Assembly (NCBI GenBank): GCA_009379955.1 | Contig: WHST01000041.1 | Span: forward strand, 1 to 45,877 | Length of the DNA stretch: 45,877 nt | Source: Streptosporangiales bacterium | Lineage (GTDB): Bacteria; Actinomycetota; Actinomycetes; Streptosporangiales; WHST01 | Direction: 5' to 3' | Shown here: positions 27,844 to 44,115 of the stretch, piece after piece | Layout of the letters: every line of letters starts with the position of its first letter | How positions within the stretch are numbered: position 1 is the first letter of the stretch | Notes under the pieces: generated by a model | Told to the model about the DNA's origin: nothing | Seen by the model: the letters and a program-made list of their open reading frames with translations, nothing else | The model's database searches: none | Made by a program: the position numbers and the translations under genes

Positions 27844-27967
27844 CACACCTCCTCGGTCGGTCGCACAGGAGTACCGGACGTCCACGTTACGAAGCGATCA
27901 GCCGACAGGATGCGCGTTGAGTGAAAGGCTTCGTCAGTCGAGCACACCAAACGAGGTCGAGGAGTCA

Positions 27968-28984
27968 ATGCCACGTCACCGTCGGTTGCTCGCGGTCGCA
28001 CTCGTCGCCGCCCTCGCCTGCGGGGTCACAGCGGGCTGCACGCCACCGGGCGAGGAGAACGGCACGTCACCCTCCCCGGAGAGCACGCGATCGAGCGAGC
28101 CGACCGACCGGGTCGCGGGCGGTCCCCGACCCCCGACGAAGGGCGCGTGGATCGGCGCGGCGGTGCAACCGCGCAAGGTGACACAGGAGGGACGCGTGCA
28201 GGCGTTCCAGGAGTTCGAGAGCGTCACCGGACGCACCCTCGACGTGGTGCACACCTACCATCCGTGGGACGACCCGTTCCCGAGTGCGGCAGACGAGCAC
28301 TTCCTCGAGCGCGGCCAGGAGCTGCTCATCGGCTGGGCAGGCTCGGACTCCCCCGGCATCGCCGCTGGGCGCTACGACCAGCTGATCAGGCAGCGGGCAC
28401 GCGACGTGAAGGCCGTCGACGACCAGCTCATGATCGCGTACCGCTTCGAGATGGACCGCCCCAACCTGCGCAGCCAGGTGCGCTCGGCGAAGGACTACAT
28501 CGCCGCGTGGAAGCACATCCGCGCGATCTTCGCGGAGGAGGGCGCGACGAACGTCGGCTGGGTATGGGCGCCGACCGCCAAGGGCTTCACCGAGGGGGAC
28601 GCGGCCGATTTCTACCCCGGTGACAACCAGGTCGACTGGCTCGGCGTCGATGCGTACACCGGTCCCCGACTCCGGCCCTTCTCCGAGGTGATGCGTGCCT
28701 ACATGGACTTCGCCGCCGAGCACCCAGGCAAGCCGATCATGATCGCCGAGTTCGGTCTCTCCGACCGTGACGGCAAGCGCCCCGCCTGGCTGAAGGCCGC
28801 ACGCGAGTACGTCAAGGAGCAGCCACGGATCAAGGCGGTGCTCTACTTCAACGGCAACAGCGAGGCGCGACCCAACGCGCTGCTCGCGCTGCAACCGTCG
28901 GAGACGGGCCGGACGGCGTTCAACGACTGGCTCGCCGACCCGCACTTCAACACGCGCAGGCATCCGGTCACGGAGCCCGGATGA
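27968..28984 (+). CDS. GH26-like glycoside hydrolase, lipoprotein
   Basis: 338 aa from the ATG at 27968 (GAGGAG just upstream); a GTG at 27917 is open but would bury the signal peptide. Lipobox VTAGC with the lipidated Cys24, then a Ser/Pro/Glu linker. The catalytic domain (from about 75) has the GH26 pattern: acid/base Glu161 in YRFEMDR and nucleophile Glu261 in IAEFGLSD, 100 residues apart. GH26 enzymes are mostly beta-mannanases or related endo-glycanases. A role in trimming or releasing the cell-surface polymer is inferred from context. Its stop overlaps the second sulfotransferase gene. Confidence 0.82.
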   Translation: MPRHRRLLAVALVAALACGVTAGCTPPGEENGTSPSPESTRSSEPTDRVAGGPRPPTKGAWIGAAVQPRKVTQEGRVQAFQEFESVTGRTLDVVHTYHPWDDPFPSAADEHFLERGQELLIGWAGSDSPGIAAGRYDQLIRQRARDVKAVDDQLMIAYRFEMDRPNLRSQVRSAKDYIAAWKHIRAIFAEEGATNVGWVWAPTAKGFTEGDAADFYPGDNQVDWLGVDAYTGPRLRPFSEVMRAYMDFAAEHPGKPIMIAEFGLSDRDGKRPAWLKAAREYVKEQPRIKAVLYFNGNSEARPNALLALQPSETGRTAFNDWLADPHFNTRRHPVTEPG

Positions 28985-29901
28985 CCGCCGTACGGGTCGG
29001 CTACCTGGGCGGGCTGGGCCGCAGCGGCACCACGCTGCTCGCCCGCCTTCTCGGCGCCCTGCCCGGCGTGTGCAGCGTCGGCGAGGACGTCCACCTGTGG
29101 GAGCGCGGAGTCGCCGCCGACGAGCGGTGCGGCTGCGGCAAGGCGTTCCACGACTGCGAGTTCTGGAGCGCGGTCGGCGAACGCGCCTTCGGCGGCTGGC
29201 ACACCCTCGACCTCGACCGCGTCCGCCACGTCGCCGGCGCGGTCGAGCGCACGCGTCACGTGCCCCGGCTCGCCCACCGTGTCCCGCGCGAGACCCACCA
29301 CCTGCTCACCGAGCACCTGCACACGTACGAGCGCCTCTACGCCGCCATTAGCGACGTCTCCGGCTGCCCGGTGGTGATCGACGCGAGCAAGCACAGCTCG
29401 CTCGCGTTCTGCCTGCGCTGGTCCCGCCGCCTCGACCTGCGGGTCCTGCACTGCGTACGCGACAGCCGTGCCGTGGCCAACTCCTGGCTGCGCACGGTCC
29501 GACGACCCGAGGTCGTCGGACGGGACGACTACATGCCCGTCTACCCGCCGGCGCGCACCGCCGCGCTGTGGTGCGTCGAGAACGCGTGCTTCGAGCTGCT
29601 GGGGCGCCGGGGCACGCCACTGCAGCGGGTGCGCTACGAGGACTTCGTCCGCGACCCCCTGGCGACGGTGCGCGCCGCCGCCGACTTCCTCGGCACGGCC
29701 CGGCCGGCCGACTCGCTCATGTCGGGCGGCGTCGCGCACCTGCAGCCGTCCCACTCGGTGTCCGGCAACCCGATGCGGTTCGTCCAGGGCGACGTCGAGA
29801 TCGCGGCGGACGACGCGTGGCACGGCCAGCTCGCGCCGCGTTCGGCACGCCTGGTCTCCGCGCTGACCCTGCCGTTGCGGTTCAGGTACGGGTACCGATG
29901 A
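28981..29901 (+). CDS. PAPS-dependent sulfotransferase, paralogue 2
   Basis: 306 aa; the ATG overlaps the stop of the GH26-like gene. PAPS loop GLGRSGTT (residues 11-18), 3'-phosphate region LHCVRDSRAVANSWLR, and the same cysteine cluster (CGCGKAFHDCEFW, then VGERAFGGW) as the paralogue at 26881. Placement between a GH26-like hydrolase and a GT2 suggests sulfation of a saccharide being built or remodelled. Confidence 0.85.
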   Translation: MTAVRVGYLGGLGRSGTTLLARLLGALPGVCSVGEDVHLWERGVAADERCGCGKAFHDCEFWSAVGERAFGGWHTLDLDRVRHVAGAVERTRHVPRLAHRVPRETHHLLTEHLHTYERLYAAISDVSGCPVVIDASKHSSLAFCLRWSRRLDLRVLHCVRDSRAVANSWLRTVRRPEVVGRDDYMPVYPPARTAALWCVENACFELLGRRGTPLQRVRYEDFVRDPLATVRAAADFLGTARPADSLMSGGVAHLQPSHSVSGNPMRFVQGDVEIAADDAWHGQLAPRSARLVSALTLPLRFRYGYR

Positions 29902-29930
29902 GCGAGGAAGCGGTGCGGGGGTATCGATGA
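29898..29930 (+). CDS. Ten-codon mini-ORF bridging two genes
   Basis: ATG at 29898 overlaps the sulfotransferase stop (ATGA), and its own TGA at 29928-29930 overlaps the ATG of the GT2 gene (again ATGA). It encodes MSEEAVRGYR. It may only keep ribosomes coupled across the gap. The two junctions look alike (GGGTACCGATGA and GGGTATCGATGA), so it may be a small duplication of the gene end. Peptide function is not claimed. Confidence 0.35.
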   Translation: MSEEAVRGYR

Positions 29931-30841
29931 CGAGCAGCCTTCCCGCGGTCACCGCGATCATCCCGACCGTGGACCGGCCCGAGCTGCTGCGCCGCGCCAT
30001 CGCGTCCGTCGCCGACCAGGACTACGCCGGCCGGCTGAGCTGCGTCGTCGTGTACGACGGCACCGAACCGGATTGGTCGCTCAGCCGCGCCGGCGACCGG
30101 CCGGTGACGGTCGTGGTCAACACCCGCAAGCCGGGTCTCGCGGGTGCGCGCAACACCGGCGTCGTGCTCGCCGACACCGCGCTCGTGGCGTTCTGCGACG
30201 ACGACGACGCGTGGCTGCCGGGCAAGCTGACCGCCCAGGTGCAGCGCCTCGCCGAGGTCCCCGAGGCCGTCCTCGCGAGCTGCGGCATCAGGATCGAGTA
30301 CGGCGACAGCACGACCGACCGCCGGCTGCCGTCCGACACGATCGCGCTCGACGACCTCCTCCGCTCCCGGCTCGCCGAGCTCCACTCGTCCTCGTTCGTC
30401 TTCCGGCGCCGGCGGCTGCTCGACCTGGGCCTGGTCAACGAGGAGGTGCCTGGCGGCTTCGGCGAGGACTACGACCTGCTGCTCCGCGCGGCCCGCGCGG
30501 GACCGATCGCCAACGTCCGCGACGTCCACCTGCTGGTCCGATGGCACCGCGCCTCGCACTTCGTCCGCCGGTGGGACACCATGGCGGCCGCGCTGGAGTG
30601 GCTGCTCCGCGAGTACCCCGAGTTCGCGTCCGTCCGCGCCGGCGAGGCCCGCATCACCGGCCAGATCGCCTTCGCCCACGCCGCACTCGGCCGGCGCCGT
30701 ACGGCCCTGCGCTGGGCCCGCCGCACGGTCGGTCGCAACCCGCTCGAGGCCCGCGCCTACCTGGCGCTCGCGGTCGCGGCGGGCGCGGTGAAGGCCGACG
30801 CCCTGGTGAGCCGCCTGCAGGCGCGAGGCCGCAGCATCTGA
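29927..30841 (+). CDS. Family 2 glycosyltransferase
   Basis: 304 aa. GT-A motifs: VTAIIPTVDRPELLRRAIAS, TRKPGLAGARNTGV, and the DXD-type FCDDDDAWLPGKL, then GGFGEDYDLLLRAA with the catalytic-base type acidic pair. C-terminal helices are charged rather than membrane-spanning. Coupled to the sulfotransferase gene through a mini-ORF. Acceptor and donor unknown. Confidence 0.87.
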   Translation: MTSSLPAVTAIIPTVDRPELLRRAIASVADQDYAGRLSCVVVYDGTEPDWSLSRAGDRPVTVVVNTRKPGLAGARNTGVVLADTALVAFCDDDDAWLPGKLTAQVQRLAEVPEAVLASCGIRIEYGDSTTDRRLPSDTIALDDLLRSRLAELHSSSFVFRRRRLLDLGLVNEEVPGGFGEDYDLLLRAARAGPIANVRDVHLLVRWHRASHFVRRWDTMAAALEWLLREYPEFASVRAGEARITGQIAFAHAALGRRRTALRWARRTVGRNPLEARAYLALAVAAGAVKADALVSRLQARGRSI

Positions 30842-31104: not shown

Positions 31105-32202
31105 GTGACAGTACCCAGCCCCGATCCGCTTCGCGCCGTCGTCGACGACGGCGTCGCTGAGAACATCGACCGGCTCATCAGTCTCGACATGCGTGGCGAC
31201 ATGTACGTTCCAGAGCTCTACGCCGCTGCGCGCGAACTGGCCGGGATGCCGCTGATGCTTGCCGGCGCCCGTGCCGTGCGGAGCGCCCTTCACTGCACTG
31301 CCGCGGAGCAGCGAAGTACGGTCGCGCTGTTCACCGGTTTCCGGATACCTCCGACGGGCGTGCCGGAGACCGACGGAGTCATCGGCACAGCGGTGCTCGC
31401 GCATGGCATCGCCCGGGCCACGGGCGCCGTACCGGTCGTCGTCTGCGAGCCCGAGTGCTTCCCGGCCGTGCGGGCTGCCCTCGTGGCGGTCGGCCTCTCC
31501 GTCGCCGTCATCGACGACGCCTCCACCACGCCCGCCGCCGCGGACAGTTACCTCGTGCCGTTCGGCATCGGTGATGCCGCGGCCGACGTGGAATCGCTAC
31601 TCACGGCTCAGTCGCCCGTCATGGTGGCGGTGGCGGTCGAGCGACCCGCCGCCAACGACCGCGGGTACTACCACTTCGCCGGCGGCATGCGGGTCGAGGG
31701 CGTCATTGCGCCGATCGACGACCTGTGGACACGGCTGCGTGACGACGGCGTCCCCACGGTCGCGATCGGCGACTTCGGCAACGAGCTCGGTACGGGCTAC
31801 CTCGCGGCGACGGTGGCCGCAGGCACCGAGTCGGGGGCAGCGTGCGGCTGTGGCTGCGGTGGTGGGGTGGCGGCCGCGACGACGGCGGACGTCACGATCG
31901 CCTGTTCGGTCTCCGACTGGGGCGCCTACGGCCTGGCGGCGATGCTCGGCCAGCTCGCCGGTGTCCCCGAGGCCCTACCCGACACGGCGACCTACCGGCG
32001 CACGGTCGATGCCGCGAACCTCGCCGGCGCGATCGACGGGACGAGCCGGCTGGGGATCCCGGCCATCGACGGCATCGGCATCGAGTTCCACGCGCGGCAC
32101 TACGAGCTGATTCGCGACGTCGTCGCTCACCCCAACCGACCGTCCATGAACAACGCCATCCGGCGCCATCGCGCCGGACTCCGATCGGAGCGCGCCCGAT
32201 GA
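31105..32202 (+). CDS. D-glutamate cyclase family protein (DUF4392)
   Basis: 365 aa from GTG. Recognised by the glutamate-cyclase-like blocks: an N-terminal helical part (IDRLISLDMRG, MYVPELYAAARELAGMPLML), GFRIPPTGVPETDGVIGTAV, VAVERPAANDRGYYHFAGG, and IGDFGNELGTG. A Cys/Gly-rich stretch (ACGCGCGGGVAAATTADV) and IACSVSDWGAYGLAAML follow. The characterised mammalian relative turns D-glutamate into 5-oxo-D-proline; bacterial substrates may differ. The stop overlaps the start of the M20-like gene, so the two products probably act together. Confidence 0.82.
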   Translation: MTVPSPDPLRAVVDDGVAENIDRLISLDMRGDMYVPELYAAARELAGMPLMLAGARAVRSALHCTAAEQRSTVALFTGFRIPPTGVPETDGVIGTAVLAHGIARATGAVPVVVCEPECFPAVRAALVAVGLSVAVIDDASTTPAAADSYLVPFGIGDAAADVESLLTAQSPVMVAVAVERPAANDRGYYHFAGGMRVEGVIAPIDDLWTRLRDDGVPTVAIGDFGNELGTGYLAATVAAGTESGAACGCGCGGGVAAATTADVTIACSVSDWGAYGLAAMLGQLAGVPEALPDTATYRRTVDAANLAGAIDGTSRLGIPAIDGIGIEFHARHYELIRDVVAHPNRPSMNNAIRRHRAGLRSERAR

Positions 32203-33701
32203 CCGACCGTGTCCCCGACCTCGCCACGCGCGTGTCGATCGAGACTGAGTTCGGGTCGGCCGTAGACGCGAGGCTGACTGCCGACGTCGCCCGGATCGCT
32301 GACATGGTCCGGCAGCCGAGCGTCAGCATCGACGGGCTGGGCGTGCGCGAGTCCGGGCACCAGCTCGCCGACGCCCTGCGCGAGCTGGGCTGCGACGAGG
32401 TCGAGGTCGTCGACACCCCCGCACATCCCGTCGTCTGGGCGTACCTCGACGCGGGCGCCGACCGCACCCTCGTCAACTACGGCATGTACGACACCCGACC
32501 GACGGGCGATCCCAAGTCCTGGACCGGCGGCGATCCGTTCAGCGGCACCGTCGCTCCGGCCGACGGCTTCCCTGCGGTGATGTACGGGCGCGGCGGGCTC
32601 GTACCGAAGGGACCGACCGTCGCCTGGCTGGCCGCGATCACCACCTACCGCGAGGCGCGCGGCCAGCTCCCGTTCAACATCGCCTTCCTCTTCGAGGGCA
32701 GCGAGATCATCGGCAGCCCGGGTTACCTCGACGTGGCCGCGCGCTACGCCGACCGCATCACCGACCCCTTCGGATGTGTCTATCTCCGCGCCTCGCAGAA
32801 GCTCACCGGCGAGATGCAGCTCTTCCTCGGCTACAAGGCTTTCTTCACCATCGAGCTCACCGCCAGCGGAGCGTCGTGGGGCCGTGGTCCGTCGACGGCG
32901 GCCGTGCACAGCGCGAACCGGACGATCGTCGACAGCCCGACCGAGCGGCTCGTTCACGCTCTCTCGACACTCGTGACGCCCGACGGTGAGATCGCCGTGG
33001 AGGGCTGGCGTCCGGGCTACACCGGTGACGTCCTCCGCCCCACGGAGAAGCCGCTGGTCGACGCGCTCGTCGAGCGCTACCGCGGCGCACCGTGGCAGGA
33101 GGTGATGCCCGGACTCGCCGGCGGCGGTGTGGAGCGTTTCGCCGGAGACGTGCTGGGGAAGGACGTCCTCGACCGCTACCTCTACGCGTCGAGCCTGAAC
33201 ATCCAGGGGCTCTACGCCGGCTACACCGGGCCGGGCACGCGCACGTACACCATCCCGTCGGCCGCCTCGGCACTGCTCGACCTGCGGCTGGTCACGGACC
33301 AGTCGACCGACGAGGTCATCGGGGCCCTGCGCGAGCACCTCGACGCGCACGGGTACCGGGACATCGAGATGGACGTACGCGGGGCGTTCGACGGGTGGAC
33401 CAGCTCGCCCGACTCCCCGCTCGTGTCGGCGTTCGTCGACGCCTCCGAACAGTTCGGCGCATCCATGGACCTCTGGCCGCGCACCGGCGGCGGCGGGCCG
33501 TGGGCGGCACTCGCCCGCCGATTCGACGTTCCGGTGATCATGGGTGCGGGCGTCGGGACCGGGAAGCGCGGCGGAGCCGTCGACGAGTACCTCGTCATCG
33601 ACGGCGGAGGCAGGGCCCCTGGGCTCCGCGAGATGGAGCTCTTCGGCATCACCTTCATCGACGACCTCGGCAGAGTGCTGGCGGCAGAGGAGAACCGATG
33701 A
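32199..33701 (+). CDS. M20-family homologue lacking the canonical metal ligands
   Basis: 500 aa, the length and layout of M20 dipeptidases (catalytic halves about 25-205 and 370-500, lid between). Every standard metal position is changed: HxD reads Met96 (NYGMYDTRP), GRGxxDDKG reads GRGGLVPKG (Leu134-Val135-Pro136), the Glu pair reads Glu169-Ile170 in EGSEIIGS, the SDT region reads RAS (197-199), and the last His reads Gly (RGGAVDEY, 457-464). The lid motif HSG is also absent. The surrounding fold is well kept, so this is a deliberate family branch, not a decayed gene. Activity cannot be assumed; a metal-free hydrolase, a binding protein or another chemistry are open. Confidence 0.8.
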   Translation: MTDRVPDLATRVSIETEFGSAVDARLTADVARIADMVRQPSVSIDGLGVRESGHQLADALRELGCDEVEVVDTPAHPVVWAYLDAGADRTLVNYGMYDTRPTGDPKSWTGGDPFSGTVAPADGFPAVMYGRGGLVPKGPTVAWLAAITTYREARGQLPFNIAFLFEGSEIIGSPGYLDVAARYADRITDPFGCVYLRASQKLTGEMQLFLGYKAFFTIELTASGASWGRGPSTAAVHSANRTIVDSPTERLVHALSTLVTPDGEIAVEGWRPGYTGDVLRPTEKPLVDALVERYRGAPWQEVMPGLAGGGVERFAGDVLGKDVLDRYLYASSLNIQGLYAGYTGPGTRTYTIPSAASALLDLRLVTDQSTDEVIGALREHLDAHGYRDIEMDVRGAFDGWTSSPDSPLVSAFVDASEQFGASMDLWPRTGGGGPWAALARRFDVPVIMGAGVGTGKRGGAVDEYLVIDGGGRAPGLREMELFGITFIDDLGRVLAAEENR

Positions 33702-33769: not shown

Positions 33770-34567
33770 TCACGGCCGCGTGTGCGGGGGATCCTCGAAG
33801 TGGAGCTCGGTCAGCGGCGTTGTGCTCCGGAAGCTGAACCGGCTCGACGGGTAGAGCGACGTGCCGGTGATGACGGTCGACCCCGCGGGGTTGGCACACC
33901 AGAGCTCGCGGGTGAGCAGGGGTTCCCCGACCCCGCACTCCAGCGTGCGCGCGTACTCCTTGGTGCAGATCGCCGCACCGATGTCCGAGCGCATCGTCAC
34001 CACGCGCAGACCGATCTCCTCCATCACACCGAACACCGACGTGCGCGCGAAGTCGGCCGCTGTCGACTCGTCCGCCACCTGGGGAAGGAGCCAGCGTGTG
34101 TCCCAGGCGACGGGGACGCCGCGGACCCTTCGGCGGCGCTCGAGGTAGGTCAGACCGCTGTCCTCGGCCAGGCCGAACCGGACGGCGATGTGGGCAGGCG
34201 GGACGCGCAGCCCGAAGTCGAGGACCTCGCCGGACACGTCGGGGCTCTGTGTGCGCCACGCGTCGGGGTAGCCGTGCCCGGTCATGTGGTCGAGCTCGTC
34301 GGTCAGTCGCGGCGTGGCGAAGGTGCCCTTCGAGCGCACGCGGTAGACGGCTCCCGCGTTGACGAGTTGCGTGTACGCCTGGCGCACGGTCATGACGCTC
34401 ACGCCGAAACGCTGGGCCAGCTCGATCTCACCTGGGAGGGGTGCTTCGACGCCGCCGCCGTCGGCCAGCAACTGCCAGAGATGGCGTTCGATGGAGACGT
34501 ATGCCGCCTCGCGCTTGCCCGACTGTCGTGCTCCGTCGTCGGGATCCTTCGCTAGAGAAACCGGCAC
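33770..34567 (-). CDS. GntR family regulator, HutC/UTRA type
   Basis: 265 aa. Winged helix at about 22-90 (LPGEIELAQRFGVSVMTVRQ, AYTQLVNAGAVYRVRSKGTF). UTRA ligand domain from about 110 to 255 (GLTYLERRRRVRGVPVAWDT, GEPLLTRELWCANPAG). It converges on the M20-like gene and diverges from the binding-protein gene, so it very likely controls both flanking transcripts in response to the imported compound or a metabolite of it. The GTG start leaves only 54 bases of shared promoter. Confidence 0.88.
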   Translation of the reverse strand: MPVSLAKDPDDGARQSGKREAAYVSIERHLWQLLADGGGVEAPLPGEIELAQRFGVSVMTVRQAYTQLVNAGAVYRVRSKGTFATPRLTDELDHMTGHGYPDAWRTQSPDVSGEVLDFGLRVPPAHIAVRFGLAEDSGLTYLERRRRVRGVPVAWDTRWLLPQVADESTAADFARTSVFGVMEEIGLRVVTMRSDIGAAICTKEYARTLECGVGEPLLTRELWCANPAGSTVITGTSLYPSSRFSFRSTTPLTELHFEDPPHTRP

Positions 34568-34621: not shown

Positions 34622-35704
34622 ATGGACGAAACGAGGGTCCTTCACGTCCCGGTGTCCCGCCGCGCTCTGTTCGCCGGCGCGTTCGGTGCGGCCGGCCTGG
34701 CCCTGCTCCCCGGCTGCACCATCGGAGGTGGCAAGGGCGACGGCAAGGCCACGACCAAGCTGACGGCGACCGAGTGGGGCGGCGTCTGGGATCAGGCCCT
34801 GACCCAGATGGCGGCCGACTTCACCGAGGCGACCGGGTTCACCATGGTCAACTCGATCGACAACAACAACGGCCTGGTGAAGATCCAGCAGAATCCCGAC
34901 CTCTACCAGGTCGCCTGGCTGACGGCCGACAAGTCGACCGCTGGCCTGAGGTCCGGAGACGTGCAGGCCATCGACACCAAGAAGGTCGAGCGGTACGCCG
35001 ACCTCTACCCGAACATCGTGAAGGCGCTGCGGATCGAACAGGGGCTCTCCGGTGTCCCGGTGAGCTGGGGTGCCACCGGCATCCTCTACCGACGTGACCT
35101 CGTGGGCTGGGACATCAAGACCTGGAAGGATCTCTGGGACGAGCGCCTCGCCAAGTCGATCGCCATCCAGGCGATGCCCGCGCTCGGCTCGGCGTCGACG
35201 GTCCGGATGGCCGCACGCACGTGGGGCTCGGGACCGGACGACCTCGACGCCGCATGGGCCGCCCTCGAGAAGCTCGCGCCCAACGTGCAGTACCAGTACA
35301 CGATCAGCTCGGACACCGTGAACAAGCTCGCCAACGGCAGCCTCAAGGTGGCCACGACGTTCGCGAACTTCGGCCTGCCGCTGGCCGACCGCGGCGTCGA
35401 GGTCGTCGTTCCGGCCGAGGGCGGGCCGTGGAGCCCGCAGGTGATCTCGATCCCGACGCAGTCGGACAACGTCGAGGGCGCCTACGCGCTCATCAACTGG
35501 ATGCTCGATCCGAAGACGCAGGCACGCTGGGTCGAGCTCACCGCCGTAGGCCCCGGCAACCAGGAGACGAAGATCCCCGCGAGCATGAAGGGCCTGCTGG
35601 TCGAGAACGACGCCGTCGCCAAGGCGGTCTGGAACGACGACTTCCTCGAGATGGGGGCCAGCCTCGACAAGTGGGCCGCGCGCTGGCAGCAGATCTTCGG
35701 CTGA
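34622..35704 (+). CDS. ABC importer substrate-binding lipoprotein (PotD/polyamine-opine type)
   Basis: 360 aa. Twin-arginine-like signal (SRRALFAGAFGAAGLALL) followed by the lipobox LLPGC, so it is exported, perhaps by Tat, and anchored as a lipoprotein. The body fits the extracellular solute-binding family of the spermidine/putrescine/opine importers (GVPVSWGATGILYRRDLVG; DLYQVAWLTADKSTAG; ALINWMLDPKTQARWVE). First gene of a five-gene rightward operon with two permeases, an ATPase and an amidohydrolase. Ligand unknown; the amidase and cyclase-like genes suggest an N-acyl or glutamyl compound. Confidence 0.87.
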   Translation: MDETRVLHVPVSRRALFAGAFGAAGLALLPGCTIGGGKGDGKATTKLTATEWGGVWDQALTQMAADFTEATGFTMVNSIDNNNGLVKIQQNPDLYQVAWLTADKSTAGLRSGDVQAIDTKKVERYADLYPNIVKALRIEQGLSGVPVSWGATGILYRRDLVGWDIKTWKDLWDERLAKSIAIQAMPALGSASTVRMAARTWGSGPDDLDAAWAALEKLAPNVQYQYTISSDTVNKLANGSLKVATTFANFGLPLADRGVEVVVPAEGGPWSPQVISIPTQSDNVEGAYALINWMLDPKTQARWVELTAVGPGNQETKIPASMKGLLVENDAVAKAVWNDDFLEMGASLDKWAARWQQIFG

Positions 35705-35735
35705 GGCGAGCGACCACGGACGTGAGGAGTCCGAC

Positions 35736-36581
35736 ATGACCCCGACGATCCCGCCGCCGGCCCGAACCACGCGCGTCAGGCCGGACGCCCGTGGAAAGCT
35801 CCTGGTGCTCCCGCTCTTCTGTTACACCCTGGCGGTGTTCGTCGTTCCGCTCGTGCTGCTCGTCCGCACGTCGTTCGCGGAGACGGTCACCGGCGGCATC
35901 GGCAGTTTCACTCTCGAACACTACGAGCGCTTCTTCACCACGAGGTTCTACTGGCAGGTCCTGCTCACCACGCTCGTCCTGTCGCTGCTCGCGTCATTGA
36001 TCGTCGCCGTCTTCGGGGTGCCGTACGCCTACGGGTTACTGCGCAGGCCCCGCGGTCGGGCGTTCTTCCTGTTCGCTCTCATCGCGCCGCTGCTCGTCAA
36101 CCAGGTGGTCCGCGTGTTCGGCTTGCAGATCCTGGTCAACTCGATCAACACGCAGCTCGAGAAGATCGGCGTGCCACAGTTGCCGTTCACCTACAGCTTC
36201 GAAGCGGTCCTGCTCGGGCAGGTGCTCTTCCTCTTCCCCTTCATGGTGATCGCCGTGTACTCCTCGCTCGGACGCCTGCCGCTCGCGGTCGAGGAGGCGG
36301 CGGCCACGCTGGGCGCGAGCCGCCTCCGCGTCTTCCGCCACGTCGTCCTGCCCGCGGCACGGCCGGGCATCATCGCGGGCTTCGTCCTCACGTTCACCAC
36401 CTCGACCGGTGCGTACCTCATTCCCCGGATGCTGGGCGGCGGCAACGTCACGACCGTTCCCCTGCTCATCTACAACGACGTGTCACAGGGACAGTCGATC
36501 GCGATGGCCGCCGTCGTGGGTCTGGTCCTGACGATCATCGTCGTGCCCATCCTGCGGCTCGGTACGGGAAGGGAACGATGA
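35736..36581 (+). CDS. ABC importer permease (PotB type)
   Basis: 281 aa. Six membrane segments with the inner-membrane ABC loop EEAAATLGASRLRVFRHVVLP (EAA motif) near residues 187-207. The N-terminus starts with a Pro/Arg-rich cytosolic tail. Lies 31 bases after the binding-protein gene, and its stop overlaps the next permease start. Confidence 0.9.
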   Translation: MTPTIPPPARTTRVRPDARGKLLVLPLFCYTLAVFVVPLVLLVRTSFAETVTGGIGSFTLEHYERFFTTRFYWQVLLTTLVLSLLASLIVAVFGVPYAYGLLRRPRGRAFFLFALIAPLLVNQVVRVFGLQILVNSINTQLEKIGVPQLPFTYSFEAVLLGQVLFLFPFMVIAVYSSLGRLPLAVEEAAATLGASRLRVFRHVVLPAARPGIIAGFVLTFTTSTGAYLIPRMLGGGNVTTVPLLIYNDVSQGQSIAMAAVVGLVLTIIVVPILRLGTGRER

Positions 36582-37375
36582 CCGTGCGCCGGACCTCCCT
36601 CTACAACTGGATCGTCGCCGTGGTCATGGTGCTGCCGCTCGTCGTCATCATCGCCGTGTCCGTCAACCCGAGTCAGTACTCGCTCTTCCCGCCCGAGGGG
36701 TTCTCCCTCACCTGGTACGCCGCAGCCTTCACCAACCTGGCCTTCGTCAACGCGCTCCTGCTCAGCCTGCAGATCGCGTTGATATCCACGCTGGTCTCAC
36801 TCGCGCTCGGCACGTCGGCGGCGTTCGCGGTGCGCCGACTCCGGTCGAGCGGCGGCCGGGTCCTCACCGCCGCGCTCGCCACGACGGCGCGCATCGTGCC
36901 CGAGGTACTACTCGGGCTGGGCCTGTTCATCTACTTCGGCAACGTCATCCCGGTGGGCCTCGGCGCTCCGGCAATCGTCTTCGGCCATGTGCTGATCTGC
37001 CTCCCGATCGCGTTCCAAGTCGTCGTATCCGCCCTCGCCCAGCAGGATCGCTCCCTGCAGGAGGCGGCCGCGACCCTCGGCGCCGGCCCTCTCGCCACGT
37101 TCCTCCGAGTGACGGTCCCCACGCTCGCACCCGGGCTCATCGGTGCCGGGTTGCTGTGCTTCGTGTTCTCGTTCGACAACGTGAACATCTCGCTCTTCCT
37201 GGCCGCGCCCGGAGAGTCGCCGCTGCCGATCCAGATGTACAGCTACCTCGACTTCCGTTCCGATCCGATGGTCGCCGCGATGTCGTCGGCGCTCGTGGCG
37301 CTCGGCGTCGTGATCTTCTTCGTGGCCAACCGGGTCGGCGCACTCAGATTCCTCGAGAACGGAGCACTGCGATGA
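36578..37375 (+). CDS. ABC importer permease (PotC type)
   Basis: 265 aa, six membrane segments. The EAA loop is LQEAAATLGAGPLATFLRVT followed by VPTLAPGL. Forms the membrane channel with the product of the gene before it. ATGA overlaps on both sides show tight coupling in the importer operon. Confidence 0.9.
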   Translation: MTVRRTSLYNWIVAVVMVLPLVVIIAVSVNPSQYSLFPPEGFSLTWYAAAFTNLAFVNALLLSLQIALISTLVSLALGTSAAFAVRRLRSSGGRVLTAALATTARIVPEVLLGLGLFIYFGNVIPVGLGAPAIVFGHVLICLPIAFQVVVSALAQQDRSLQEAAATLGAGPLATFLRVTVPTLAPGLIGAGLLCFVFSFDNVNISLFLAAPGESPLPIQMYSYLDFRSDPMVAAMSSALVALGVVIFFVANRVGALRFLENGALR

Positions 37376-38478
37376 TCGCCGCCCCGCCCACCGAGTCCTT
37401 TCTCTCGATCGAGGGTGTCACCAAGCGCTTCGACCAGGGCGGCGGCGTCTCCGACGTGAGCCTGTCGCTGCCGCGCGGCAAGATGCTCGTGCTGCTCGGT
37501 CCCAGCGGCTCGGGCAAGACCACGTTGCTGCGCTCCATCGCCGGACTGGAGCGTCCCGACTCCGGTGCGCTCACGCTGGACGGAGCGACGATGAACGGCA
37601 TACCTACCCACAAGCGCGGTGTAGGGATGGTCTTCCAGACCTGGGCCCTGTTCCCGTTCCTCACGGTCGCGGAGAACGTCGCGTTCGGACTGAAGATGGC
37701 GGGGCTGCCGAAACGGGAACAAGTCGCGCGCGTCGCCGAGGCGCTCGACCTGGTGCATATGAGCGGCTTCGGCGACCGCAAGCCCGCCCAGCTCAGTGGC
37801 GGCCAGCAACAACGCGTTGCGCTTGCGCGTGCCATCGTCACCCGCCCGAAGTTGCTGCTCTTCGACGAGCCGCTCTCCAGCCTCGACCAGAAGATCCGGG
37901 TCGAACTGCGGACGCAGCTGCGACAGATCCAGCTGGATCTCGGCTTCACCGGCGTCTACGTCACGCACGACCACTCCGAGGCGCTCGCACTGGGGGACGA
38001 GATCGCAGTGATGCGCGACGGGTACGTCGTCGAGACCGGTGGCCCGGTCGAGATGTTCACCAGCCCGAAGCACTCGTATACGGCGCAGTTCCTGTCGGTC
38101 GGGACGACGCTCCCGATCGAGAGCGTGGACCCCACCACGGCGACCGTGACGACATCGTCCGGGCTCGCCCTCGCCCTGCCCGGCACCGCCGCGTCCGCGG
38201 CGGTCACGGGGAAGGTCGTCCTCGTGCCCACCCGGGCGGTGACGCTGCTGCCCCGCGGGACAGGTGAAGACACCGAGCGGGACGACCATGACAACGTCTT
38301 CGACGGCGAGGTCACCGCGGTCGAGTTCGAGCAGGTCAGCGTGCTGTACACCGTGCGGACAGCCGAGGGGAGCGTCGAACTGCGCAGCAGCGAGCCGCTC
38401 GACTCGCCGCTGGCCGGCGTCGGCGCGCCCGTCAGCATCGTGGTCGACGCCAGAAGGGTTTCGGTGATCGAACCGTGA
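37372..38478 (+). CDS. ABC importer ATP-binding protein (PotA type)
   Basis: 368 aa from the ATG at 37372, which overlaps the permease stop. Walker A GPSGSGKT at 43-50, Q-loop FQTWALFPFLT, signature LSGGQQQR, Walker B LLLFDEP, and the H-loop VTHDHSEAL. A C-terminal TOBE-type domain (about 265-368) is present as in PotA/FbpC. Powers the two permeases. Confidence 0.9.
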   Translation: MIAAPPTESFLSIEGVTKRFDQGGGVSDVSLSLPRGKMLVLLGPSGSGKTTLLRSIAGLERPDSGALTLDGATMNGIPTHKRGVGMVFQTWALFPFLTVAENVAFGLKMAGLPKREQVARVAEALDLVHMSGFGDRKPAQLSGGQQQRVALARAIVTRPKLLLFDEPLSSLDQKIRVELRTQLRQIQLDLGFTGVYVTHDHSEALALGDEIAVMRDGYVVETGGPVEMFTSPKHSYTAQFLSVGTTLPIESVDPTTATVTTSSGLALALPGTAASAAVTGKVVLVPTRAVTLLPRGTGEDTERDDHDNVFDGEVTAVEFEQVSVLYTVRTAEGSVELRSSEPLDSPLAGVGAPVSIVVDARRVSVIEP

Positions 38479-39641
38479 GCGACCCGATCGCCACCGGCGT
38501 CGACGCCGACTTCGAGCGCGCGCGCGAACTGGCCGGCGTCATCCACTCCCGGCCCGAGCTCGGCTTCGCCGAGCACTTCGCCGCCGACGCTCTCACCAGG
38601 TGGCTCGGGGACAGCGGGTTCACGGTCACCACGGGCACCGCCGGTCTGCCGACCGCGTTCACCGCCGTGAGTGGATCCGGTGGCGGCACCGTGGCCTACA
38701 TGGTCGAGTACGACGCCCTCCCCGGCGGCCTCGGTCACGCCTGCGCGCACCACCTCATAGCCGGCGGCGTGACGCTGGCCGCGGTCGCGCTCGCCGCGTC
38801 TCGTGGCGACCGGCCCGGACGGATCCTCGTCGTCGGCACTCCCGCCGAGGAGGGCGGCGGCGGCAAGCAGCTGCTCCTCGACGCGGGCGCCTTCGATGGA
38901 GTCGACGCCGCGCTGATGTTCCACGGCGCCGACCGGACGATGGTCGACCGTCCCATGCTCGCCTCGCTCGTCTACCGCGCGACCTTCACCGGAACCCCGG
39001 CCCACGCCGCCAAGAACCCCGAGGCCGGCAGGAGCGCGCTGTCCGCGGCGACCCTCCTGCTCCATGCCGCCGACACGATGCGCGTCCACTTCGGGGCAGA
39101 CGCCCGACTGCACGGCATCATCGAGGACGGGGGTCAGGCGCTCAACGTCATTCCCGAACGCGCTGTCGTGGCGTTCCAGGCGCGTGCCGCGACAACCACC
39201 CGGGCACGCGAGATCGGGCGGTGGTTCGAGGAGTCGTGCCAGGCGGCGGCGACGATGACGCAGACGCGTGTCGCGGTCGACCGGCCGACGCCGGAGTACG
39301 CGCACCTGGTCAGCAACCCCGTGCTCGCCGCACAGTGCGCGCGCTACCTGGGCGATGCCGGTGAGACCGTCGAGCCCGTCGCCGCGAACGAGGCGACCGC
39401 GAGCACGGACGCCGGGAACGTGAGCCACAGGGTGCCTACCCTCCACCCGTTCGTCCGGGTGGCACCGAGAGGCACGCCCAGCCATTCGACCCTGCTGCGC
39501 GACGCCGGGCTGGAACCTCTGGCCTTCGACGGTATGCGGGCCGCCGCGAGCGCACTCGCCCGGCTGGGGGCCGATGTGCTCGACGACGAAGAGTTCCGCG
39601 CCCGGGTCCGGGCCGCGTTCGTCGACGACGCAACCCGGTAG
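38475..39641 (+). CDS. M20D family amidohydrolase
   Basis: 388 aa from a GTG overlapping the ATPase stop. Unlike the M20 homologue at 32199, its metal site looks intact: GLGHACAHHLIAGG, PAEEGGGGK with the Glu pair, and the middle His in MFHGAD. The dimer/lid domain carries GTPAHAAKNPEAGRSALSA. This branch includes aminobenzoyl-glutamate, N-acetyl and indole-acetyl amino acid hydrolases, so it should cleave an amide bond in the imported compound, in the cytosol. Confidence 0.87.
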   Translation: MSDPIATGVDADFERARELAGVIHSRPELGFAEHFAADALTRWLGDSGFTVTTGTAGLPTAFTAVSGSGGGTVAYMVEYDALPGGLGHACAHHLIAGGVTLAAVALAASRGDRPGRILVVGTPAEEGGGGKQLLLDAGAFDGVDAALMFHGADRTMVDRPMLASLVYRATFTGTPAHAAKNPEAGRSALSAATLLLHAADTMRVHFGADARLHGIIEDGGQALNVIPERAVVAFQARAATTTRAREIGRWFEESCQAAATMTQTRVAVDRPTPEYAHLVSNPVLAAQCARYLGDAGETVEPVAANEATASTDAGNVSHRVPTLHPFVRVAPRGTPSHSTLLRDAGLEPLAFDGMRAAASALARLGADVLDDEEFRARVRAAFVDDATR

Positions 39642-39872: not shown

Positions 39873-41030
39873 ATGCCGCACAGTCATGGAGGCAGGCGAC
39901 ACGCGAGGCCGCGATCTCGCCGATCCCCTGCCCGCAACGCCACGACCGGGCTCGTCGCCCTCGCCTCGGTCGTGACCCTCGCCGGTCTGAGCGCGTCCAC
40001 GACGGCCGACGCCGCGCTGTGGTCCCGCCAGGGCTCGCACGCCTCGTCGACCGCATCGGCCCCCGAACGTGCCGACGACGTGCCGGGCGCCGAGCACCTC
40101 GTCCCGGTGCGGCCACCGGCGAAGAAGCAGCAGCACGACCCGACGAAGGAGGCGAAGAAGGAGGCAGAGCCCGCGGCGAAGGAGACGGGCGGGACCGGCG
40201 CCGCCGACCGCACGGAGGCGGGGCCGACGAAGTTCGGTGCCGCCGTCCGTGCCGGCCGCGGCGAGACGTACCGCCAGGCCGTCGACAGGTCCGTGCGCCA
40301 GTACGGCCGGCTCGGCGTGGTGCGCAAGTTCTATCCCGGCCTGCCCGCACCGTGGTCGCGCATCCGGCACGACATCGGCTCGCTCACGCCGGCCGTCTCG
40401 TTCAAGGCGAGTCCCGCTCAGGTCCTGTCGGGCAGGCACGACGCGCGGCTGAAGGAGTGGTTCGCGTCCGCGCCGACCGACCGGCCGATCTACTGGACCT
40501 ACTTCCACGAGCCCGAGAACGACGTCGACGCGGGCGCCTACAGCCCGGCGCAGTTCACGGCCGCGTGGAAGCGGATCAGCAGGCTCGCCGACGCGGCTGA
40601 CAAGCCCAACCTGAAGGCGACCCTCACGCTGATGTGCTGGTCGCTCGAGAAGGGCTCCAAGCGTGACTGGCGTGACTACTTCGCGGGCAGGCAGTACGTC
40701 GACGTGCTCGCATGGGACTGCTACAACAAGGCGATCACACGCGCCGACTACGCCGACCCGAAGGCGATGCTCGGCACGGCGATCGCCACCGGCAGGTCCG
40801 TCGGCCTCCCCGTGGCCTTCGGAGAGTTCGGCAGCAAGCTCGCCCCAGGTGACAACGGCACCCGCCGCGCCGCCTGGCTGCTCGCCGCCGCCAGGTACCT
40901 GCACGACAACGACGTCGTGTACGTCAGCTACTTCGACTCGACCGTCGGCGGAGAGTTCCGGCTGCTCGACCGCGTGTCACAGCTCGCCTGGCGCACCGTC
41001 GTGACCGGCACCGCCCGCTGGCAACGGTAG
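39873..41030 (+). CDS. GH26-like glycoside hydrolase, secreted
   Basis: 385 aa. Arg-rich start and hydrophobic segment (about 24-44) ending in ADAA, a signal peptide; then a Lys/Glu/Pro-rich linker to about residue 120. Catalytic domain has the GH26-type acid/base Glu213 in YFHEPEND and the nucleophile Glu318 in FGEFGSK, 105 residues apart. It is more distant from the first GH26-like protein (27968) than a recent duplicate would be. Monocistronic with a structured leader, it ends at hairpin family A. Probably acts on a surface or environmental glycan. Confidence 0.8.
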   Translation: MPHSHGGRRHARPRSRRSPARNATTGLVALASVVTLAGLSASTTADAALWSRQGSHASSTASAPERADDVPGAEHLVPVRPPAKKQQHDPTKEAKKEAEPAAKETGGTGAADRTEAGPTKFGAAVRAGRGETYRQAVDRSVRQYGRLGVVRKFYPGLPAPWSRIRHDIGSLTPAVSFKASPAQVLSGRHDARLKEWFASAPTDRPIYWTYFHEPENDVDAGAYSPAQFTAAWKRISRLADAADKPNLKATLTLMCWSLEKGSKRDWRDYFAGRQYVDVLAWDCYNKAITRADYADPKAMLGTAIATGRSVGLPVAFGEFGSKLAPGDNGTRRAAWLLAAARYLHDNDVVYVSYFDSTVGGEFRLLDRVSQLAWRTVVTGTARWQR

Positions 41031-41146: not shown

Positions 41147-42403
41147 CTAGGTCTTGTCGATCTCCAGCATGCCTGCCGCGACGGTCTGGTTCGTCGCCTC
41201 GTCGATGAGGATGAACCCGCCGGTCTCCCTGTTGCGTCCGTAGTCGTCGCAGAACAGGGGCTGGGTCGTGCGCAGCGAGATCCGGCCGATCTCGTTGAGA
41301 CCCAGCTCGACGGCGCCCTCGTTGCGGTGCAACGTGTTGATGTCGAGCTGGTACTGCAGGTCCTTCACCATCGCACGCACGGCGTGCGTGGTGTGCTTGA
41401 GCGTGTAGCGTCGACCCGGCTTCAGGCTGCCCCGCTCACTCATCCAGCACACCATCGCGTCGAGGTCCTGCGTGACCCGCGGTGAGTTGTGGGGCCGGCA
41501 GATCATGTCGCCGCGCGAGATGTCGATGTCGTCGGCGAGCCGCACGACCACCGCCATGTCGGGGAACGCCTCCTCGACCGGTCCGTCGTAGGTGTCGATC
41601 GCGGTGATGGTGCTGGTGAACCCGGACGGCAGCGCGAGCACCTCGTCGCCGACCTTCATCACGCCGCCGGCGACGGTGCCGGCGTAGCCGCGGTAGTCGT
41701 GGTACTCCTGCGCCTTGGGCCTGATGACGTACTGCACGGGGAAGCGCACGTCGATGAGGTTGCGGTCACTCGCCACGTGGATGTTCTCCAGGTGGCCGAG
41801 CAGGGTCGGTCCGTCGTACCAGGTCATCTCGCTCGACCGCTCGACGACGTTGTCGCCCTTGAGCGCCGAGATCGGGATGATCGTGAGGTCGGGCACCCGC
41901 AGCCGCTGCGCGAAGACGGCGAACTCCTCGCGGATCCTCGTGTAGACGTCCTCGCGGTAGTCGACGAGGTCCATCTTGTTGACCGCGAGCACCAGGTGCG
42001 GCACCCGCAGCAGCCCCAGCAGGAACGCATGGCGCCTGCTCTGCTCGGTGAGGCCGTGCCGCGCGTCGACGAGCACGATGCCTAGATTGGCGGTGGACGC
42101 CCCGGTGACCATGTTGCGCGTGTACTGCACGTGGCCCGGGGTGTCGGCGATGATGAACTTCCGCCGCGGGGTCGCGAAGTAGCGGTACGCCACGTCGATC
42201 GTGATGCCCTGCTCGCGCTCGGCGCGCAGGCCGTCGGTCAGCAGGGCGAGGTCGGTGTACTGGTCGCCGCGGGCGCGGCTGGCGCGCTCGACCGAGTCGA
42301 GCTGGTCCTCGAAGATCGCCTTCGAGTCGTACAGCAGCCGGCCGATCAGCGTGCTCTTGCCGTCGTCGACGGAGCCGGCGGTGGCGAAACGCAGGAGGTC
42401 CAT
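41147..42403 (-). CDS. cysN: Sulfate adenylyltransferase, GTPase subunit
   Basis: 418 aa. Translation-factor-type GTPase: GSVDDGKST (P-loop), DTPGHVQYTRNM (G3), NKMDL (G4), then two beta-barrel domains. It drives APS formation by CysD through GTP hydrolysis. The protein ends after the barrels, so it has no C-terminal APS-kinase domain. Start overlaps the cysD stop. Confidence 0.95.
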   Translation of the reverse strand: MDLLRFATAGSVDDGKSTLIGRLLYDSKAIFEDQLDSVERASRARGDQYTDLALLTDGLRAEREQGITIDVAYRYFATPRRKFIIADTPGHVQYTRNMVTGASTANLGIVLVDARHGLTEQSRRHAFLLGLLRVPHLVLAVNKMDLVDYREDVYTRIREEFAVFAQRLRVPDLTIIPISALKGDNVVERSSEMTWYDGPTLLGHLENIHVASDRNLIDVRFPVQYVIRPKAQEYHDYRGYAGTVAGGVMKVGDEVLALPSGFTSTITAIDTYDGPVEEAFPDMAVVVRLADDIDISRGDMICRPHNSPRVTQDLDAMVCWMSERGSLKPGRRYTLKHTTHAVRAMVKDLQYQLDINTLHRNEGAVELGLNEIGRISLRTTQPLFCDDYGRNRETGGFILIDEATNQTVAAGMLEIDKT

Positions 42404-43317
42404 CAGAAGTAGCCCTCCTTCTTGCGGTCTTCCATCGCGGCCTCGCTGAACTTGTCGTCGGCGCGCGTGGCGCCGCGCTCGGTGATGCGGCTCGTCGCCA
42501 CCTCGACGATGACCTCTTCGACGGTGGACGCCGTCGACTCGACCGCACCGGTGCAGGACATGTCACCAACGGTGCGGTACCTGACCGTCGCCTCGTACGG
42601 GGTCTCGTCGTCGCGCCTGGTGATGACGTCGGAGTCGGACAGCAGCATGCCGTCGCGCTCGAACACCTTGCGCACGTGGGAGAAGTAGATGGACGGCAGC
42701 GCGATCCGCTCCCTGGCGACGTAGTCCCAGATGTCGAGCTCGGTCCAGTTGGACAGCGGGAACACCCGCATGTGCTCGCCGGGATGCACCCGGGCGTTGT
42801 AGAGGCTCCACAGCTCGGGCCGCTGGCCCTTGGGGTCCCACTGGCCGAACTCGTCGCGGAACGAGAAGATCCGCTCCTTGGCGCGGGCCTTCTCCTCGTC
42901 CCTGCGCGCGCCGCCGAACAGCGCGTCGAAGCCGTGTTCGACGGTGGCGTCGAGCAGCACCTGGGTCTGCAGCCGGTTGCGGCCCTGCCCGGGCAGCTCG
43001 TGGACGCGGCCGTCGGCGAGGGCGTCCTCGACCGACGCGACCTCGAGCCGGACGCCGAGCTCGGCGACGAGCCGGTCGCGGAACTCGATCACCTCGGGGA
43101 AGTTGTGCCCGGTGTCGACGTGCATCACGGGGAACGGCACCGGTGCGGGCCAGAAGGCCTTGACCGCCAGGTGCAGGAGTACGCAGGAGTCCTTGCCGCC
43201 GGAGAAGAGCAGGGCGGGCCGCTCACATTCGGCCGCGGCCTCCCTGATGACGTGGATGCCTTCGGCCTCGAGCGCGTCCAGCTGCGACAGGCGATAGTCG
43301 GACGTGGTGATCGCCAT
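42403..43317 (-). CDS. cysD: Sulfate adenylyltransferase, catalytic subunit
   Basis: 304 aa from the ATG at 43317; the frame stays open much further upstream, but that stretch is the shadow of cysQ. PP-loop motif LFSGGKDSCVLLHLA, HVDTGHNFPE, the FGGARRDEEKARAKER stretch, and the typical C-terminus EAAMEDRKKEGYF. Makes adenosine 5'-phosphosulfate from ATP and sulfate with CysN. In this place it supplies activated sulfate to the nearby sulfotransferases rather than, or besides, cysteine synthesis. Confidence 0.95.
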   Translation of the reverse strand: MAITTSDYRLSQLDALEAEGIHVIREAAAECERPALLFSGGKDSCVLLHLAVKAFWPAPVPFPVMHVDTGHNFPEVIEFRDRLVAELGVRLEVASVEDALADGRVHELPGQGRNRLQTQVLLDATVEHGFDALFGGARRDEEKARAKERIFSFRDEFGQWDPKGQRPELWSLYNARVHPGEHMRVFPLSNWTELDIWDYVARERIALPSIYFSHVRKVFERDGMLLSDSDVITRRDDETPYEATVRYRTVGDMSCTGAVESTASTVEEVIVEVATSRITERGATRADDKFSEAAMEDRKKEGYF

Positions 43318-43334
43318 GGGCGACAGGTTCCTCC

Positions 43335-44093
43335 TCAGACGGCGTGCGCCGCGTTGAGCGCGTTCATCACACGGCCCGCGATCTCCTGGCGGCAGACCAC
43401 GAGGTCGGGAAGTGAACGCTCTGCGGTGTCGTACGTCAGCGGGGATCCGTCGAGCCGAGACGTGTGCAGGCCGGCGGCCCGAGCGACCGCGATCGGCGCG
43501 GCGGAGTCCCACTGGTACTGCCCGCCGGCATGGACGTACGCCTCGGCCTCGCCGCGCACCACCGCCGCGACCTTGGCACCCGCCGAGCCCATCGGCACCA
43601 GCTCGCCGGGCAACACCTCCGCCAGGCGTACGGCCTCCGCTGGAGGGCGCGTACGACTGACCAGGATACGAGAGGGAGTGCGCAGGTGGGACAGCGCGGG
43701 TGGGTTGTCGGCGGTGAGCACCATGCCCAGCGCGGGCAGGGCCACGGCGCCGGCGACGAGGCGGCCCGTCTCCCACAGCGCGACGTGCACCGCCCAGTCG
43801 GACCGGTCGAGCTCGCCGTACTCCCGGGTGCCGTCGAGCGGGTCGATGATCCACACCCGGTCGGCTCCCAGCCGGCGCTCGTCGTCGGGCGCCTCCTCGG
43901 AGAACACGATGTCGGCGGGACGCGCCTGGCCGAGGAAGTCGGCGAGCACGCCCTGCGCCACCCGGTCGCCCTCGTCACGCAATGCCCCGGGGTCGCCGTC
44001 ACCGCGCTCCGCGCGCAACCGCAGCAGGGCCTCACCGGTGCGCCTGGCCGCGGTCCTCGCCACGGCGTGGTCATCGAGCTCCTGGGACGTCAT
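43335..44093 (-). CDS. cysQ: 3'(2'),5'-bisphosphate nucleotidase (CysQ-type, inositol-monophosphatase fold)
   Basis: 252 aa. IMPase-fold metal motifs: FSEEAPDD, WIIDPLDGTREYG, and WDSAAPIAVARAAG. Breaks down 3'-phosphoadenosine 5'-phosphate, the inhibitory by-product of sulfotransferases. The gene lies 17 bases before cysD, and with cysDN and two sulfotransferases it completes most of a sulfation module. Other phosphatase substrates of this fold cannot be fully excluded. Confidence 0.88.
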   Translation of the reverse strand: MTSQELDDHAVARTAARRTGEALLRLRAERGDGDPGALRDEGDRVAQGVLADFLGQARPADIVFSEEAPDDERRLGADRVWIIDPLDGTREYGELDRSDWAVHVALWETGRLVAGAVALPALGMVLTADNPPALSHLRTPSRILVSRTRPPAEAVRLAEVLPGELVPMGSAGAKVAAVVRGEAEAYVHAGGQYQWDSAAPIAVARAAGLHTSRLDGSPLTYDTAERSLPDLVVCRQEIAGRVMNALNAAHAV

Positions 44094-44115
44094 ACGCGTC
44101 CGCCTCCCCCGCTCA

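Follow-up and report, generated by a model that had tools for sequence, protein, structure and literature searches.

A Streptosporangiales M20-fold protein that has lost all five metal ligands and kept the rest of its active site, possibly a metal-independent enzyme

The M20 family is a textbook family of two-metal hydrolases. In the carnosinase CN2, metal 1 is bound by Asp132, Glu167, and His445 and metal 2 by Asp132, His99, and Asp195, while Glu166 is the catalytic Glu, and in CN1 mutation of a metal ligand abolishes activity (PMC6271292); therefore, a metal-free M20 hydrolase would need some form of compensation. In the M20A aminoacylases, a catalytic Asp, a catalytic Glu, and a lid His have been described beside the metal ligands (PMC11511702). 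Searches of open-licence papers turned up no account of M20 proteins that lack their metal ligands. Metal-free descendants of metalloenzymes are already known in other folds, for example creatinase, which has the pita-bread fold. In the class Ie R2 ribonucleotide reductase, a conserved metalloenzyme fold continues to function with its metal-binding carboxylates replaced by Val, Pro, and Lys, but its fold and chemistry are unrelated to M20, and metal-free function is proven there whereas we infer it here (PMC11846895).

The window analyzed here is a 45,877-nucleotide stretch of DNA from a Streptosporangiales bacterium (contig WHST01000041.1), and the gene of interest in it (Table 1) encodes a protein matching PF01546 (Peptidase_M20, E 3e-13) and PF07687 (M20_dimer, E 2e-6), both above the curated cut-offs. 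Its best NCBIfam matches are to the dipeptidases PRK06446 (E 1.5e-45) and PRK08201 (E 1.4e-36), but with 156 bits against a cut-off of 369 and 126 bits against 441, respectively, the protein lies outside both named families. An AlphaFold2 model built with 34 related sequences (mean pLDDT 91.4, pTM 0.90) has only M20 proteins as its top structural matches, led by Sso-CP2 (4mmo; Z 38.8 over 433 residues, 2.8 Å), with CN2 and Dug1p also among the best. Taken together, Pfam and the predicted structure identify the protein as a genuine M20-fold homologue of the carnosinase-like branch, with a catalytic domain and an inserted dimerisation/lid domain, and both the frame and the fold proposed in a first-pass annotation of this DNA are confirmed.

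The nearest solved relatives by sequence and structure are the Sso-CP2 carboxypeptidase (4mmo) and an M20 peptidase from S. pneumoniae (2pok), which share the two-domain fold with the window protein over nearly the full length at about 25% identity. The Asp, the catalytic Glu, the lid His, and the Arg are kept in all three. However, 4mmo and 2pok retain the family ligand motifs, whereas in the window protein the five ligands are all missing and an additional SWGRGP insert precedes the lid His. Likewise, the carnosinases CN2 and CN1 and Dug1p (M20A) match the fold at Z 34–35, and the equivalents of catalytic Glu166 and the lid His are kept in the window protein, but His99, Asp132, Glu167, Asp195, and His445 of CN2 are all replaced.

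We aligned the protein with PDB sequences and with 79 canonical relatives to read the ligand columns, and counted residues over these 79, over the ten proteins of group 2, to which the window protein belongs, and over the 32 sequences (two of them fragments) of group 1, both groups being described below. At the five columns the window protein has M96, V135, I170, R197, and G459 instead of the canonical H, D, E, D (or E), and H, so that V135, I170, and G459 stand at metal 1 positions and M96 and R197 at metal 2 positions, with E169 as the catalytic Glu. The replacements noticed in the first-pass annotation are numbered correctly to within one position. Met96 and Ile170 are exactly the columns of CN2 His99 and Glu167. 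Leu-Val-Pro 134–136 had been set against the bridging Asp, and V135 is that column while L134 and P136 are not; Arg-Ala-Ser 197–199 had been set against Ser-Asp-Thr, where the ligand is indeed lost and R197 is the Asp195 column; and within the proposed Gly458–459, it is G459 that falls on the His445 column. Glu169, called the general base there, is kept as claimed. By contrast, the HSG motif of the lid is not gone, as H237 (in AAVHSANRT) aligns with the family lid HS(G) and only the Gly has changed.

Thus, the five ligands that mark a metallo-hydrolase are missing, but the catalytic Asp, Glu, and lid His known from M20A enzymes are all present as D98, which lies two residues after the first-ligand column, E169, and H237. 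K137, R363, and E463 are kept too, and R363, which aligns with an Arg invariant in 79/79 canonical sequences, is probably the lid Arg that binds the C terminus of the substrate.

Table 1. Features of the window, with residue counts in the alignment columns (group 2, ten proteins; group 1, 32 sequences; canonical, 79 sequences)
Feature	Position	Strand	Evidence or column content
DUF4392/D-glutamate cyclase-like protein	31105..32202	+	PF14336, E 6e-57; 4-base overlap with the M20-fold gene
M20-fold protein, five metal ligands all replaced, 500 aa	32199..33701	+	Intact frame (ATG at 32199, stop at 33701), Pfam, alignments, AlphaFold2 model
Met96 codon, His99 (CN2, metal 2) column	32484..32486	+	Met 8/10 group 2, 31/32 group 1; His 79/79 canonical
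Asp98 codon, non-metal active-site Asp, kept	32490..32492	+	10/10 group 2, 32/32 group 1, 79/79 canonical
Val135 codon, bridging Asp132 column	32601..32603	+	Asp 79/79 canonical; Asn 31/32 group 1 (one unreadable); group 2 has K, G, V, A or a gap
Glu169 codon, catalytic Glu166 of CN2, kept	32703..32705	+	Invariant in all groups
Ile170 codon, Glu167 (metal 1) column	32706..32708	+	I/L 10/10 group 2; Glu throughout group 1 and the canonical set
Arg197 codon, Asp195 (metal 2) column	32787..32789	+	Alignments
His237 codon, lid-domain His, kept	32907..32909	+	10/10 group 2, 31/32 group 1, 79/79 canonical
Gly459 codon, His445 (metal 1) column	33573..33575	+	His 78/79 canonical, 30/30 scorable group 1; group 2 has E, G, A or D
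GntR/UTRA (HutC-type) regulator	33770..34567	-	Family match
PotABCD-like ABC importer: binding protein, two permeases, ATPase	34622..38478	+	Family matches
M20D-type amidohydrolase	38475..39641	+	TIGR01891 above cut-off; normal-looking motifs GHACAHH, PAEE, HG, HS in the sequence

The same losses recur in other organisms. Relatives were collected by searching plasmids and by scanning genomes with an alignment as the query; whole-genome searches around the members from archaea, Alphaproteobacteria, and Chloroflexota supplied more, while a scan of genome contigs with a single-sequence query found no relatives. Group 2 comprises ten distinct proteins, namely the window protein, six from haloarchaea (Natronosalvus, Natrialba, the MAG protein L036, L120, L121, and L122), one from a Chloroflexia MAG (L037), and one each from Bosea (L033) and Microvirga (L038), with 33–41% identity between lineages, and it forms a single clade with support of 100/100 in a tree from which the ligand columns were left out. 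The bridging Asp, the second Glu, the second-site Asp, and the last His are absent in all ten, and the first His is kept only by Bosea and Microvirga. By contrast, D98, K137, E166, E169, H237, R363, and E463 are invariant across the group. Basic residues appear at former ligand columns, i.e., Arg197 in the window protein, Lys/Arg197 in Bosea and Microvirga, and Lys135 in five haloarchaeal proteins, but none was seen at the former ligand columns in the Chloroflexia protein or in L122, and the column is not fixed across the group. Column 459 carries an acidic residue in haloarchaea. With the losses repeated in nine other members from two domains of life, the alignments place the loss of the ligands beyond chance. 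Closer to home, 394 further genomes of the class gave no match at E 1e-70 and 150 nearby genomes only weaker M20 relatives; the gene is therefore sporadic there and was probably acquired by transfer.

Group 2 nests inside a broader ligand-depleted M20 clade that counts about 40 proteins and spans many phyla (support 100/99, ligand columns removed), and this clade is still one derived group, with support of 99, when a CPG2-like M20 serves as the outgroup. The group 1 sequences of this clade come from Gammaproteobacteria, sphingomonads, Acidobacteria, Myxococcota, Bacillota, Gemmatimonadota, Chloroflexota, Armatimonadota, and Nanoarchaeota (loci L039-L056, L058, L063, L073, L098, L034, L035, L132, L133, and L136-L139), and are labelled as ordinary metallo-hydrolases where annotated. 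Nearly all have Met in place of the first His and Asn in place of the bridging Asp, and they mostly lack the second-site Asp but keep Glu170 and the last His. Judged by these residues, metal site 1 is largely intact in group 1 and site 2 largely gone, and the members of this group may be one-metal enzymes. Two proteins show other combinations: L141 (HDE-x-H) keeps the first His and Asp and has Pro-Gly at the second-site Asp and a Trp near the lid His, and L134 (MDEWH) has Met at the first His and Glu-Asp in the bridging motif; both are possibly earlier or mixed, intermediate states. The depleted clade carries further marks that are absent or rarer in canonical proteins, namely an inserted W-G-x-G-P stretch at about 227–231, Q200, K213, R250, N334, D361, D388, and G455. 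No NCBIfam family reached its cut-off with the ligand-depleted proteins. Pairs within the depleted clades give dN/dS of 0.06–0.26 by a simple counting method, in which the values near 0.06 rest on nearly saturated dS.

The pattern of ligands suggests a stepwise series from two metals to perhaps one and then to none. Tentatively, this might be extended to catalysis itself, in that an inter-domain M20 clade would have passed from two-metal through apparently one-metal to metal-free catalysis by ordered ligand loss, with Lys/Arg replacing the metals and the intermediate still alive in many phyla, a scenario that we regard as possible rather than probable.

The M20-fold gene starts within the stop codon of the DUF4392 gene (ATGA), so that the translational coupling to a D-glutamate-cyclase-like gene noted in the first-pass annotation holds locally. 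The pairing is not conserved, however, since none of six relatives (three genomes and three plasmid records) has a DUF4392 gene, while in the genome of the window that search recovers two. The second copy (locus L152, G000:C33:22,000-25,500) lies between a D-glutamate cyclase gene (PF07286) and a canonical CPG2-like M20 gene that starts 4 bases past the DUF4392 end, and this locus is likely a D-glutamate/N-acylglutamate catabolic operon. An M20 gene thus stands beside DUF4392 twice in this genome, with two different kinds of M20, which hints, weakly, at glutamate derivatives as substrates. On the other side, the GntR/UTRA gene is convergent to the M20-fold gene and points away from the PotABCD-like importer and M20D genes; a promoter and terminator scan found none. 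Elsewhere, group 2 genes adjoin ABC importers of the peptide or sugar type and genes for hydrolases and dehydrogenases, including the isochorismatase family, the PTE family, M19, amidohydrolases, acetamidase, the agmatinase family, and D-2-hydroxyacid dehydrogenase, with no DUF4392 gene among these neighbours.

The window protein belongs to a distinct M20-fold clade that has lost the ligands of both metal sites and kept the rest of the active site, and with moderate confidence we hypothesize that it most likely catalyzes a metal-independent reaction. The substrate would be an N-substituted amino acid taken up by import, perhaps one derived from glutamate, and lid residues including Arg363 would hold it; the reaction would be of the amide or lactam type, with Glu169 acting as general base or acid. 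The basic side chains that replace ligands (Arg197, Lys/Arg197, or Lys135) might take over part of the charge stabilisation provided by the metals. The product would pass to the coupled DUF4392 glutamate-cyclase-like protein, while the PotABCD-like importer and the canonical M20D could perform other steps of one catabolic cluster.

The main rival is that the protein is a non-catalytic, substrate-binding pseudoenzyme, i.e., an M20-fold binding, scaffold, or regulatory protein, a substrate holder, or a partner of DUF4392 or M20D. The loss of all metal ligands, the tight coupling to the DUF4392 gene, and the co-encoded canonical M20D, which could be the true catalyst, are all consistent with such a role. 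However, the invariance of Glu169, Asp98, and His237 in all ten group 2 proteins goes beyond the needs of a binder, and the absence of DUF4392 from the six relatives argues against a dedicated partnership, so that we consider this explanation somewhat unlikely.

Alternatively, the protein might still be a metalloenzyme, with a single metal bound by residues not recognised as ligands, such as Asp98, Glu166, Glu169, His237, Asp462, Glu463, or Gln200. Asp98, Glu166, Glu169, His237, and Glu463 are invariant and lie within active-site motifs, Gln200 (Gln/Glu) is specific to the clade, and in the larger clade Glu170, the last His, and the Asn could form a one-metal site. However, Asp98, Glu166, Glu169, His237, and Glu463 also occur in canonical proteins, alongside the five true ligands, and are therefore not new ligands, and the group 2 replacements include Lys and Arg, which would repel a metal. 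Among residues near the site, we found no conserved His, Asp, or Glu that is absent from canonical proteins, except Gln200 (Gln/Glu) and residues of the lid and C-terminal helix, and the alignments reveal no ligands at shifted positions. A hidden one-metal site is thus improbable.

Finally, a decaying pseudogene of an ordinary M20 peptidase, which the lost ligands and a long tree branch might suggest, is highly improbable and was rejected, since the 500-codon frame is intact, the losses are fixed in a clade of relatives from two domains of life with dN/dS of about 0.06–0.25, and the non-ligand catalytic residues are kept. The closest homologues carry the same losses instead of normal ligands, and the branch without metal sites is real, ancient, and under purifying selection; being shared by two domains and so constrained, a metal-free branch is favoured over the decayed exception that the first-pass annotation had named as a possible refutation.

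If catalysis in this clade did become metal-free by such steps, the clade would give M20, a metallopeptidase family, a metal-free enzyme of its own. Databases name these relatives automatically as "M20/M25/M40 family metallo-hydrolase," a name that our analysis suggests is wrong for dozens of proteins. Moreover, a monophyletic lineage that shed its ligands in what looks like an ordered way, yet retained the catalytic Glu, Asp, and His, offers a natural series for studying how an active site survives without metals.

Several other features of the window deserve mention. The DUF4392 protein has a Cys/Gly-rich stretch at residues ~243–252, AACGCGCGGG, a potential site for a metal or a cluster. 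Directly downstream of the importer and M20D genes lies a 385-amino-acid open reading frame (39873-41030) that matches neither Pfam nor NCBIfam at E 0.01. Genes of the surface-polysaccharide type (sulfotransferase, glycosyltransferase, and sugar transferase) flank the catabolic cluster (27917-30841 and 41147-45615), and the flanks also carry PAPS reductase, inositol-phosphatase, and EF-Tu-like GTPase genes, possibly for sulfate activation.
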